Assembly (NCBI GenBank): GCA_002877915.1
Contig: PNJE01000073.1
Span: 1-34,174, forward strand
Source: Candidatus Aminicenantota bacterium
GTDB taxonomy: Bacteria; Acidobacteriota; Aminicenantia; Aminicenantales; Saccharicenantaceae
Length of the DNA: 34,174 nt
Direction of reading: 5' to 3'
The notes under the pieces are model-generated. The model was not told where the DNA came from. It saw nothing but the letters and a program-made list of their open reading frames with translations, and ran no database searches. Position numbers and translations under genes: made by a program. Below, piece after piece: positions 13,387 through 19,100 of this stretch; the stretch's first letter is position 1; each line of letters begins with the position of its first letter.

Positions 13387-14835
13387 ATGCCATTAACTAC
13401 GTGGCTTATAATTATCGGAGCAATTATTGTTTTCTTGGCTATTGTTGGCCTAATATTAGCTATTCAATACCGGAAAGTTGGGCCCAACGAGGCCCTAATT
13501 ATTGCTGGCGGGCGCAAGAGGACAGTTTCCCTGCCTGATGGAACAAAGATAAAGGTCGGATATAGATATAAGCTGGGTGGTGGTACCTTTGTCTGGCCAT
13601 TCATTGAAAAAGTTTATGCTTTGCCCCTCGAAGTTATCACTCTTTTTATAAAAACGCCTGAAGTCCTGACTCATGGGGGGATTCCAATTCTGGCCGAGGC
13701 TTCAGCTCAGGTCAAGGTGGGCTCAAGAGACCTGGACATCAGGTTAGCCGCAGAACAATTCCTGGGCACAGGAAAAGAAGGTATCCGCGATGTGGCTATG
13801 AACGTCCTCGAAGGCAAAATGCGAGAAGTCATTGGGACAATGACCGTTGAGGAAATTTACCGGGGGCGCCAGGAATTTTCGCGAAGAGTTATTGAAGCCA
13901 CTAAGGAAGACCTTTCCAAGATGGGTCTGGTTATCCTTTCTTTTTCCCTCAAAGATATCAGTGATACCCAGGGTTATATCGATGCCTTGAGCAAACCGGT
14001 AATTGCCGCCGCCAAAAGGGATGCCGCTATTGCCCAGGCAGAAACAGAAAAGGAAGCTATTATCAAATCATCCCAGGCCCGGAAAGAAGCCGAAGTTGCC
14101 CGGCTGCAGTCTGAAGCTCAGATTGCCAAAGCTCAGTGGGAAAATGAAGCCAAGAAGGCTGAATCCCAAGTGTTTGTCAACCAGAAAAAAGCCCAGGCTG
14201 ATTTTTCTTACGAGCTGGAAAAAAATAAATTGTCCCAGGAGATAAAAAAGGAAGAAGCTAAGGTCAAGCAGATTGAAAAAGAGGAAGCCATTAAGATTGA
14301 AGAGCTGGAGATCAGGCGCAAGGAAAGAGAACTTGAAGCTAATGTCTTAAAGCCGGCTGATGCCCGCAAATATCAGATTAAGGCTGAGGCTGAAGCCGAA
14401 GAAATCAGGTTGATGGCGGAAGGCAAAGGCAAAGCCGAAGCTATGCGCCTGGAAGCTCAGACAAAAGCCGAAGAGATCAGGCTCCGCGGCCTGGCCGAGG
14501 CTGAAGCTATGATGAAAAAAGCCCAGGCCTGGGAAAAGTATAACGAGGCCGCTATCCTGGAAACCTTCATTAAGGTTATGCCTGAGCTGGCGAAAGCAGT
14601 GGCTGAGCCTCTCTCCAAGGTGGAAAAAATCGTCATCATCGGTGGAGATAAGGGAGTGGGAACAAGCCAGATTACCGGCCAGGTAACTGAAATAATTGCC
14701 CAGATGCCCGAGATAATAAAGACACTCACCGGGGCCGACCTTAACCAGTTTTTAAAAAACAAGCTCAGTGGAACCACGCCTAAAGCTCAGCCGGAAGATG
14801 CCTCCGCTCAGGGCAAAACTCCTGATAAAAAATAA
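13387..14835 (+). CDS. Flotillin-like SPFH/band 7 protein
   Basis: N-terminal [47 protein letters not shown], long Ala/Glu/Lys coiled coil; RBS GGAGGGAGG. Confidence 0.93.
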
Positions 14836-14867: not shown

Positions 14868-17192
14868 ATGGTTTCAGAAAGAGTGACGAAAATAGGGGCT
14901 TCTCCCACCTTAAAGATTTCAGCCAAGGCCAAAGCCATGAAAGCCGAAGGCCTTGACGTTGTGGACTTAAGCGTTGGTGAGCCGGACTTTCCAACACCGG
15001 AAAATATAAAATCGGCAGCCATAAAAGCTATTGAGCAGAATTTCACCAAATACACAGAAAATGACGGCATTCCTGAATTGAGAAAGGCGGTTTGCCTGAG
15101 GCTAAAAGAGGACTACGGGGTGGAATATAAGCCCAATGAAATTTTAGTCTCGAGCGGCGCTAAGAACTCTCTATTTAATTTAATTCAGGCCATTGTTAAT
15201 GAGGGAGATGAAGTCATCATTCCGGCTCCTTATTGGGTAACCTATCCTGAATGTGTCAACCTGGCCAAGGGGAAACCGGTTATCGTCGAGACCAGGGAGG
15301 AAGATGGATTTTTGCTGACGCCGGGATTGCTGCGGGCAGCTATTACCCCCTCGACCAGGGCTTTGATACTTAATAATCCCGGCAATCCAACCGGCGCAGT
15401 TTACAGCGAAGAACAGCTCCGAGCCTTGGCCGAAGTTATAAAAAAGGAAGATATTTATATCATCGCTGATGAAATTTACAGCCGCCTGGTTTTTGATGGT
15501 TTCCGCTTCGTGAGTTTTGCCGCCCTGGGAGAAGATATCAAGAAAAAGACCATCCTGATTACCGGAGTTTCCAAGAGCTATTCTATGACCGGGTGGAGAA
15601 TTGGCTTTGCGGCTGGCCCGACTGAGATAATAAGTGCTATGTCAAAGGTCCAAAGCCATACCACTTCTAACGCCTGCTCGATATCGCAGAAAGCCAGCGT
15701 TGAAGCTTTGGTGGGCCCGCAGTATGAAGTAAATAAGATGGTGGCAGAATTTCAGAGAAGGCGAAATTATGTCTTGATGAGGCTGCAGCAAATTCCAGGG
15801 ATTTCCTGTTTCAAGCCTCAGGGAGCTTTTTATGTCTTTCCCAACGTAAAGTCGTTTTATGGAAAAGAGGCTGGCGGAATCCAGATTAGAAATTCTTACG
15901 GGCTGGCTTATTATCTTTTGAAGGAAGCGCAGGTAGCTATAGTGCCCGGGGATGCTTTTGGAGCCGATGATTACATCAGAATTTCCTACGCCACTTCGAT
16001 GGCCAACCTGGAAAAAGGTCTCGACCGAATCGCCGAAGCTATGTCCAGGCTTAAAACGGCCAAGAAAGTTAAACAGATTTATCTGCAGAATTACGTAACC
16101 AGAGTGAAAAAACCGGTGCCAATTGAGGTAGTGAGCGAAACCAAAATGCGCGATGCCCTGGTAGCCGAAATGGAAAGCCATCTTGGTTACGAGAATTATT
16201 ATGAGTGGAATGCCAATATTAACGGGACAATTGTTCAGCTCAAAACCAACGTCGGGCATCTATATGATTTTTGGGTAGAAAATTGGTTTCCTGGCCAGAT
16301 TGAAGCCGGGCTCGAACCGCACGCTATAATTTATGCTGTGGACAATGTAGCCGGGAGAGAGCCGCGCGCTTATTATCATCCGGAGACGAGAACCGGTCTT
16401 CTCGTTAACACGGATAATTACGGCGCCTTGAGAAAATTAGCCCTGGGAATGGTTATTGATTCGCAGGAACACTTAGGAATAAATGCCGTAAGGGGCATGG
16501 CGGTGGCGGCGGATGGCAATTCTCTTATTCTTATCGGTCAACCAGGAACTGGCAAAACCGAGCTGTTCTTTAAGTTGCTAAAAAAAACATCTGTCCAGGC
16601 ACAGACCAATGAGATTCTGTTTGTGAGATTTTCCGGAAACCGGGCGGTTGCCGATAGCGTTGAAAGGAAATTCTACATCCCGACCAATACGGTTGAGCTT
16701 TACGACAAGTTAGCCAAATTATTTGACCACAGCAAGTGTGAGAATGTGGTTACCCGGCGGGAAGATTGCACTGACCGAAAATGCCCGATGCAGGATGACT
16801 GCCGGCTGGACAAGGGCGCGCCTTATTGTTTCAGGGCTTCAAGCGAGTCCCAGGCTATGCTCGACCCGAATTGGATCTCGGGGCCATCAGGTTATGTAAA
16901 GAGGACAAATCTTAAAGCTTTGGTGATTTTGAGAAATGATCAGACCTCACCGGCTGTTGTTGAGCTAACAAAAGAAGAAGCCTTGAAGTGCCTGGAATCC
17001 GGCGAGCCAGCGGGAGCCATCAAGGCAGTTTCGGCTAAAGCCCAGCCATTTTTTAATCCTCATCTTATAGTGATGAATGAAGATAAGATGGCTTTAGAGC
17101 GAATGTTCTTCAGTCGGTTGCTCGACCAGGTCAAGTGCTATTTGGCCAACAGCGCCGTCGTGACCGCGGACCAGCTCAAATCCCTGCTCTAA
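14868..17192 (+). CDS. Fusion: class I PLP aminotransferase (aspartate aminotransferase-like, about aa 1-396) plus P-loop HprK/PEPCK-like domain (about aa 397-774)
   Basis: N-part: VDLSVGEPDFPTPENI, NNPGNPTGAVYS, IADEIYSRLVFDG, SKSYSMTGWRIGF (PLP Lys). C-part: GINAVRGMAVAADGNSLILIGQPGTGKTELFFKLL (Walker A at 16536-16562) and a five-Cys cluster. No stop or frame change between the parts. Confidence 0.9.
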   Translation: MVSERVTKIGASPTLKISAKAKAMKAEGLDVVDLSVGEPDFPTPENIKSAAIKAIEQNFTKYTENDGIPELRKAVCLRLKEDYGVEYKPNEILVSSGAKNSLFNLIQAIVNEGDEVIIPAPYWVTYPECVNLAKGKPVIVETREEDGFLLTPGLLRAAITPSTRALILNNPGNPTGAVYSEEQLRALAEVIKKEDIYIIADEIYSRLVFDGFRFVSFAALGEDIKKKTILITGVSKSYSMTGWRIGFAAGPTEIISAMSKVQSHTTSNACSISQKASVEALVGPQYEVNKMVAEFQRRRNYVLMRLQQIPGISCFKPQGAFYVFPNVKSFYGKEAGGIQIRNSYGLAYYLLKEAQVAIVPGDAFGADDYIRISYATSMANLEKGLDRIAEAMSRLKTAKKVKQIYLQNYVTRVKKPVPIEVVSETKMRDALVAEMESHLGYENYYEWNANINGTIVQLKTNVGHLYDFWVENWFPGQIEAGLEPHAIIYAVDNVAGREPRAYYHPETRTGLLVNTDNYGALRKLALGMVIDSQEHLGINAVRGMAVAADGNSLILIGQPGTGKTELFFKLLKKTSVQAQTNEILFVRFSGNRAVADSVERKFYIPTNTVELYDKLAKLFDHSKCENVVTRREDCTDRKCPMQDDCRLDKGAPYCFRASSESQAMLDPNWISGPSGYVKRTNLKALVILRNDQTSPAVVELTKEEALKCLESGEPAGAIKAVSAKAQPFFNPHLIVMNEDKMALERMFFSRLLDQVKCYLANSAVVTADQLKSLL

Positions 17193-17200
17193 AAATCGGT

Positions 17201-17393
17201 AAAAATCGGGACACCCTAGATTTTTCCGAATTTTCATAATAAATCGCATAAAAATCGGGACACCCTAGATTTTTCCGAATTTTCATAATAAATCGCATAA
17301 AAATCGGGACACCCTAGATTTTTCCGAATTTTCATAATAAATCGCATAATAAATCGGGACATCTTATATTTCCCCGAATTTTCATAATAGCAT
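17201..17393. repeat. 49-bp tandem repeat: three identical copies (17201-17249, 17250-17298, 17299-17347) plus a degenerate fourth (17348-about 17393)
   Basis: Unit AAAAATCGGGACACCCTAGATTTTTCCGAATTTTCATAATAAATCGCAT repeated head-to-tail. Each unit can fold as AAAAATC-GGG-aca-CCC-ta-GATTTTT. Confidence 0.97.
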
Positions 17394-17605: not shown

Positions 17606-18796
17606 TCAATAAATGGGCCAGCGGCGGGCAATAAAGCCGTCGCGAATTTCCCGCCAGCTTCCCAGCACTTCGTCAGCAATTTTCTTAATTTCATTTTTAG
17701 CCTTGCTGACATCCAATCCCCATAACTCTACATTCAGCGCCTGAGGTTGGGTTATCGGATCATTTATTTTACTCACCATGTAAACATAAACCTGCTTAAC
17801 TTCAGGAAGCTGAGTGACTATGCGGTTAGCTATCAGCTGGCTCATGATGCTATAAATTTTGCCCACATGGCTAACTGGATTTTTTCCGGCCACCGCTTCA
17901 AGGCTCATCGGGCGGTAAGGCGTAATCAGACCGTTGGCCCGGTTACCACGCCCGACCTGCCCATCATCTCCAGATTCAGCACTTGTTCCGGTGACCGTGA
18001 GATAAGCTGTCTTTTTGGTATCAGCATTATTTATTATTACTTCTACCTTTCGATCGGTATAACGGCCAACAAATTCATCTTTGAGGTAGCGCTCAATTTG
18101 ATTTTTTATTTCATCATAAGTTTTTCTGTCTGGCACCTCTGAGGCCACAAAAGCGGCCGCTATGGTCAGGGTGATTAATTCCTCCTTCCGAACACCCATT
18201 ACCTTAATATCTTCGCCGAGAGCCGGCCATTTTTGTTTGCCTTCGGAGCTGTTTAAAAATTTTTCCGTTTCAAAAACCAGTTTCTCCAGCTCGCTCAGCG
18301 GAGCATATCCGACCGCTAAGGAAGTATCGTTTGCTCGCGGCGGCTGTTCATTGTCAGAAAAGATACTAACCAGGTCATCACTCCCCGAACGAATTAATAA
18401 CTTAACATTAAAATTTTCAGGTTTAAGATGGGGCACTTGCCCCATCATCCAACCCCTAATTTTATCTTCCAGCTTAGCTTCATTAATTAACTTTTTCCCA
18501 TCGACTTCCTTGCTGGCCCGTCCGACGATATACAAATTAATTGGCTCAATTATCTGGCCGCCGCCAAAATCGCACCTTGAATGCCCCCCGACCAGAACAG
18601 CCTTATCGACGTTATGATGTAAAATTTTCCCGGTCTCCTGCCGATAAATTTCAGAAAGTGCCACCGAAAGCTCCTCCGAGGCCCCATCGCATAAAGAATC
18701 AGGATGCCCCTTGCCTTTCCGCTCGACAATTTCTACCGGTATTTCCTCGGCTAACAAATCTTGACCCGCCCTAAGCTCAAAATAATATTCAGACAT
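17606..18796 (-). CDS. mat: Archaeal-type S-adenosylmethionine synthetase (methionine adenosyltransferase)
   Basis: VEIVERKGKGHPDSLCDGASEELSVALS, DKAVLVGGHSRCDFGGGQIIEPI, TGTSAESGDDGQVGRGNRANGLITPYRPMSLEAVAGKNPVSHVGKIYS match the archaeal MAT family rather than classical bacterial MetK. Confidence 0.95.
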   Translation of the reverse strand: MSEYYFELRAGQDLLAEEIPVEIVERKGKGHPDSLCDGASEELSVALSEIYRQETGKILHHNVDKAVLVGGHSRCDFGGGQIIEPINLYIVGRASKEVDGKKLINEAKLEDKIRGWMMGQVPHLKPENFNVKLLIRSGSDDLVSIFSDNEQPPRANDTSLAVGYAPLSELEKLVFETEKFLNSSEGKQKWPALGEDIKVMGVRKEELITLTIAAAFVASEVPDRKTYDEIKNQIERYLKDEFVGRYTDRKVEVIINNADTKKTAYLTVTGTSAESGDDGQVGRGNRANGLITPYRPMSLEAVAGKNPVSHVGKIYSIMSQLIANRIVTQLPEVKQVYVYMVSKINDPITQPQALNVELWGLDVSKAKNEIKKIADEVLGSWREIRDGFIARRWPIY

Positions 18797-18981: not shown

Positions 18982-19100
18982 CCTCTCATCTTTCGCTCCA
19001 GCCGAAATCGGAGCTCAACGCTTTTGGCACCTTGCTCACCATTGAGCAGGTTGCCGGGCTTCATCGGGCGCGTCAACCCTCTGCCTCTCTGGATGAGAGG
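18982..19100 (-). ncRNA. SAM-I (S-box) riboswitch aptamer
   Basis: Minus strand reads CCTCTCATCCAGAGAGGCAGAGGGTTGACGCGCCCGATGAAGCCCGGCAACCTGCTCAATGGTGAGCAAGGTGCCAAAAGC...GAAAGATGAGAGG: conserved GCCCGATGAAGCCCGGCAACC and AAGGTGCCAAA cores, and a perfect 9-bp P1 (CCTCTCATC/GATGAGAGG). Lies upstream of the SAM synthetase on the same strand. Confidence 0.93.

Follow-up and report, generated by a model that had tools for sequence, protein, structure and literature searches.

Positions 14868-17192 (+) of the window, that is, of the whole stretch of 34,174 nucleotides that was analysed, encode one protein in which a class I aspartate aminotransferase (aa 1-396) is joined in frame to a C-terminal domain (C-domain) of about 375 aa. 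The explanation that we favour, with a probability of roughly 0.6, is that this protein is an aspartate aminotransferase (AspAT) with a pseudo-PEPCK domain, which would have a regulatory or docking function and would couple the enzyme to a flotillin scaffold. The fusion itself, the fold of the C-domain, the loss of its motifs, its single origin, the selection acting on it and its gene neighbourhood were all established computationally, and from them we infer that the C-domain docks or senses something and in this way influences transamination.

The fusion gene and its distribution

The gene is a single open frame of 774 aa with zero internal stops, as the first-pass annotation of the window had read it, and both motifs quoted there are present as written. 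That annotation also proposed a search for the same fusion in other genomes, and named a frameshift or an assembly join near 16050 as the observation that would speak against it. In the window's own genome the fusion is single-copy (the own-genome search gave an open frame of 779 aa). A query consisting of the C-domain only, run against genome contigs, found 78 loci from other genomes, most of which have the same aminotransferase/C-domain junction and a frame of about 775-790 aa. Wherever the sequence extends far enough, the loci from Aminicenantes, Zixibacteria, Calditrichota and Ignavibacteriota/Bacteroidota have the same aminotransferase in frame upstream of the C-domain, and the exceptions are broken copies (L052 is split, and in L056 the aminotransferase part is split). 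The fusion is thus carried by more than 60 independent genomes (MAGs of these four groups), and the complete chromosomes CP070813, CP070674 and CP070766 are among the assemblies with the same junction. Because this junction recurs in so many independent genomes, the notion that sequencing or assembly had joined two unrelated genes near 16050, for which no point in favour was found, retains practically no probability.

Of 149 genomes sampled from the phylum of the window, 15 have the C-domain, in every case within an open frame of 774-795 aa. Further weak matches in this draw (E ~1e-4) cover the P-loop stretch only; they are probably HprK and were discarded. Each of the 11 genomes checked for copy number has one C-domain, fused or free-standing, never both, and the plasmid search gave no match to the C-domain.

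The aminotransferase domain

14868..16055, + strand: class I (AspAT-type) aminotransferase domain, aa 1-396 (PF00155, nearest structures, invariant residues)
15573..15575, + strand: codon of K236, the predicted PLP lysine (SKSYSMTGWRIG) (sequence; invariant in 44 fusions)

The N-terminal half is a complete class I aminotransferase of about 396 aa, in agreement with the first reading. The full-domain match to the Pfam profile Aminotran_1_2 (PF00155), by which class I aminotransferases are recognised, was found on aa 30-388 (E 4.9e-79, 266.6 bits against a cut-off of 19.7). The nearest solved structure is AspAT B 6f35 (392 aa aligned, E 7e-115), and other near structures are AspAT 1j32 and the bifunctional Asp/prephenate AT 5wmh. 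Six residues are invariant across 44 aligned fusions, namely K236, N173, D201, Y204, R244 and R371, which we take to be the PLP Lys, the Asn, the Asp, the Tyr and the two Arg of the class; the PLP-lysine role of K236 is presumed from general knowledge of class I aminotransferases. As all six are invariant, the active site should be intact, again by general knowledge of the class. The NCBIfam equivalog cut-offs lie above the score of this half (456 versus 617 bits), and its nearest relatives predict Asp/2-oxoglutarate transamination. The window's genome encodes no other close AspAT, the next relative being 33% identical.

Fold and family of the C-domain

16056..16085, + strand: interdomain linker, approximately aa 397-406 (low pLDDT in the full-length model)
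16065..17189, + strand: C-terminal domain with predicted PEPCK fold (pseudo-PEPCK), aa 400-774 (AF2, Foldseek, hhalign)

The AlphaFold (AF2) model of the C-domain, built on an alignment of 64 relatives, has a pLDDT of 89.6 and a pTM of 0.89. The best Foldseek match of this model in the PDB is an ATP-PEPCK (E 2.4e-18, TMq 0.70), the alignment to ATP-dependent PEPCKs spans the C-domain end to end, and among the matches listed by Foldseek (50) all are PEPCK. In hhalign, all C-domain copies taken together match the neighbouring PEPCK genes with a probability of 95.7 (E 1.1e-8), and the free-standing copies alone with a probability of 91.3 (E 9e-7); HPr kinase gives a weak profile match at the P-loop (E 0.002-0.006). 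Because the modelled fold is that of PEPCK and profile matches to both PEPCK and HPr kinase exist, the C-domain is assigned, on model and profiles, to the HprK/PEPCK superfamily. The AlphaFold and profile check that the first-pass annotation proposed therefore sustains its description of this domain as HprK/PEPCK-like.

Nothing above the curated cut-offs of Pfam or NCBIfam was found for the C-domain, only weak P-loop matches. The window has no match to PF01293 (ATP PEPCK), for which two free-standing relatives (L077 and L078) score 18.9 and 22.3 bits against a cut-off of 26.5, and none above the cut-off to PF07475/TIGR00679 (HPr kinase/phosphorylase). AAA/helicase matches in Pfam (AAA_5, E 2e-4) are below the cut-off, are confined to the P-loop and were superseded by the fold search, and TOPRIM matches in the PDB sequence search were rejected as weak and at odds with the fold.

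The full-length AF2 model (pTM 0.55) has no defined interface between the aminotransferase and the C-domain, and aa 400-406 have a pLDDT below 50. We propose from this model that the two domains are joined by a flexible linker.

Loss of the catalytic residues in the fused copies

16491..16493, + strand: Arg (in NAVRGM, aligned with HprK LHG) replacing the His that is catalytic in HprK/PEPCK relatives
16536..16559, + strand: Walker A-like GQPGTGKT, intact in the window and degenerate in most fusions (motif counts)
16608..16613, + strand: Asn-Glu in place of the catalytic Asp-Asp of the free-standing relatives (motif counts, PEPCK alignment)
16737..16829, + strand: five-Cys insertion CENV..C..C..C..C, a possible metal site (alignment)

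Free-standing relatives of the C-domain (L059-L078) occur in MAGs labelled Deltaproteobacteria, Nitrospirae, Acetothermia and Planctomycetota. Motifs were counted in 71 fused and 17 free-standing copies, and the complete set of His, Walker A and Asp-Asp is present in 17/17 free-standing versus 0/71 fused copies. Taken singly, Walker A (GxxxxGK[ST]) is kept in 5/71 fused copies, Asp-Asp in 3/71 and His in 3/71, with Arg at the His position in 67/71, whereas each of the three is kept in 17/17 free-standing copies. When the free-standing copies are aligned with PEPCK, their His, Walker A and Asp-Asp each coincide with the corresponding element of PEPCK, an Arg coincides with the later Arg, and Lys-Ser stands where the neighbouring PEPCK has Lys-Lys. 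For the PEPCK active-site set (Lys-Lys, His, Walker A, Asp-Asp) the window has RK, R, GQPGTGKT and NE. Its intact Walker A makes the window atypical among the fused copies: most of those in Aminicenantes have GTKKT at this position, and in Zixibacteria it is entirely gone (GPKGLKRG). In two loci (L039 and L057) Arg stands for His beside an intact Walker A and Asp-Asp, a state compatible with stepwise loss. Since the fused copies never keep the full set, there are strong grounds in the motif counts to infer that their C-domain has lost phosphotransfer activity.

The first-pass annotation considered two roles for the C-domain, an ATP-dependent kinase coupled to transamination and a regulator of the aminotransferase; these counts weigh against the former, and the latter is the option that survives. 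In its strongest form, the kinase idea describes an active bifunctional enzyme, which converts aspartate to oxaloacetate and then makes PEP in the C-domain, or phosphorylates a keto acid, an amino acid or a protein with ATP. The PEPCK fold, the intact GQPGTGKT of the window and the pathway logic of a frequent PEPCK neighbour gene would agree with this; however, the catalytic His and Asp-Asp are missing in the window, the Zixibacteria copies have no Walker A, even the free-standing relatives differ from PEPCK in the Lys-Lys pair, and many fusion genomes retain a separate PEPCK. An active kinase or PEPCK is therefore disfavoured by the motif counts and we regard it as very unlikely, though the C-domain may still catalyse by a non-canonical route.

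Nucleotide binding may survive in the window, which keeps Walker A, as do L039 and L057 together with Asp-Asp. A non-catalytic domain whose P-loop binds ATP or ADP and links AspAT activity to energy charge would explain why GTGKT is kept in the window and in L058, and GTGKS in L039 and L057, and would agree with the purifying selection on the C-domain. But in most fused relatives the Walker A glycine is replaced by Lys, Arg or another residue, or Lys-Thr is missing, and because of this degeneration nucleotide binding is unlikely as a function shared by the family; we consider nucleotide sensing a minor possibility.

The most conserved patch of the C-domain, WNAN..TN..H..FW.ENW, lies N-terminal to the P-loop and is common to fused and free-standing copies. 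Its strong conservation could point to a different transferase activity on the same fold, but a site for binding or for an interface would explain it just as well, and we know of no precedent for new transferase chemistry in the HprK/PEPCK fold; the chance of this is slim. The five-Cys insertion is found in the Aminicenantes fusions, has fewer Cys in Zixibacteria and is largely missing from the free-standing copies of Myxococcota and Nitrospirota.

The free-standing L059-L078, of about 357 aa, appear to be intact HprK/PEPCK-like proteins with no Pfam family, and their sequences suggest that they are probably an uncharacterised kinase family. In many Deltaproteobacteria-labelled MAGs their genes are preceded by guaB-guaA-like genes and followed by that of an S49 peptidase.

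Origin and selection

All fused copies form one clade with a support of 100 both in the C-domain tree and in the aminotransferase tree (both are quick trees, with some long end branches), which argues for one fusion that has been inherited since. Pairwise dN/dS between close relatives in the window's genus is 0.04-0.11 for the C-domain versus 0.03-0.04 for the aminotransferase (for pairs that include the window, dS is saturated). Therefore, the C-domain is under strong purifying selection and is not decaying. Two sequence-level marks of a pseudoenzyme were thus found: the catalytic residues are gone and purifying selection on the domain is retained.

Gene neighbourhood and the proposed role

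13387..14835, + strand: flotillin/SPFH gene, 32 bp upstream of the fusion gene (homologue has Band_7 + Flot)

In 51/51 testable fusions (48 by clustering, 3 by tblastn) the gene immediately upstream, on the same strand, encodes a flotillin, and the 3' end or body of this gene was found just upstream in all ten phylum loci tested. No flotillin was found in the examined flanks of the free-standing C-domains, nor beside unfused aminotransferases, for which the flanks extend only about 1.5 kb.

Downstream, 33/51 fusions have a PEPCK gene of the ATP type no more than 600 bp away; in Zixibacteria a nucleoside diphosphate kinase gene sits between it and the fusion gene. In the phylum draw a PEPCK is present in 11/15 fusion genomes versus 7/134 others, an association confounded by kinship. 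In the window's own genome an ATP-PEPCK is absent and a GTP-PEPCK is encoded elsewhere, so a PEPCK partner was rejected as a universal feature. Internal TGA codons in the PEPCK matches of genomes G004 and G047 were dismissed, as the alignment overran the natural stop; the PEPCK match of G020 also shows an internal TGA. The PEPCK beside some fusions (L025:6176-8005, L046:6588-8432 and similar) is a divergent protein of about 615 aa (295.6 bits versus the NCBIfam PEPCK cut-off of 369).

Near the fusion gene, the window contains a 49-bp unit repeated four times with 94% matches (17193-17389), which begins right after the stop codon, and an ordinary SAM riboswitch (RF00162, 62.6 bits, 18983-19099, - strand) upstream of a SAM synthetase gene (17606-18796, - strand).

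In the explanation that we favour, the aminotransferase would interconvert aspartate and oxaloacetate, and the C-domain would be an HprK/PEPCK-fold module derived from a free-standing enzyme, which lost its phosphotransfer residues after the single fusion. The module was probably retained for binding: it would dock to the flotillin platform of the same operon, as gene order suggests, and/or sense a ligand, a C4 acid or a nucleotide, thereby adjusting transamination. The neighbourhood suggests the aspartate-oxaloacetate-PEP branch point as the site of action. An unlikely extension is a flotillin-anchored module, in which the pseudo-PEPCK as adaptor ties AspAT to the membrane scaffold, together with a true PEPCK where present, and channels aspartate-derived oxaloacetate to PEP. 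If true, this would be a bacterial membrane-organised entry into gluconeogenesis, with a dead paralogue as the adaptor.

The clients of bacterial flotillins are largely unknown, and through the fusion a functional connection of these proteins to central amino-acid metabolism becomes testable. The fusion is also a clear evolutionary case of an enzyme turned into a non-catalytic partner, with one origin and with the catalytic set present only in the free-standing copies, and the C-domain is spread through widespread uncultured phyla without a Pfam or NCBIfam model.

Comparison with known systems

Each half falls into a known superfamily; their combination and the disappearance of the catalytic set from the fused copies appear undescribed in the open-access literature searched, where no paper on the fusion was found. 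This is consistent with the initial remark that no characterised enzyme with such an arrangement is known.

The class I AspATs (AspAT A/B, 1j32 and Asp-prephenate type, PF00155) align with the whole N-domain and share its catalytic residues, but the known members (about 400 aa) stop where the C-domain of the fusion begins. ATP-dependent PEPCK (PF01293) shares its fold with the entire C-domain, and its profile aligns through the P-loop, ENV and LTPEQA-like regions; however, the C-domain has 375 aa against about 530, lacks His and Asp-Asp and stays under the Pfam cut-off. With HPr kinase/phosphorylase (PF07475; 1jb1, 1ko7) the HG...G..GtGK.. segment aligns, but the match extends over no more than some 60 residues, both His and Asp are replaced and the HprK N-domain is absent. 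The free-standing relatives share the C-domain of the window at full length (32-39% identical) and, unlike the fusions, have the complete His, Walker A and Asp-Asp set, are unfused and have no flotillin alongside. A precedent for how a non-catalytic C-domain could work is the plant PPDK regulatory protein (PDRP), in which a P-loop-fold domain has been proposed to be allosteric and not catalytic (PMC9138534), although PDRP is of another family, its two domains are of one fold and it has no aminotransferase.
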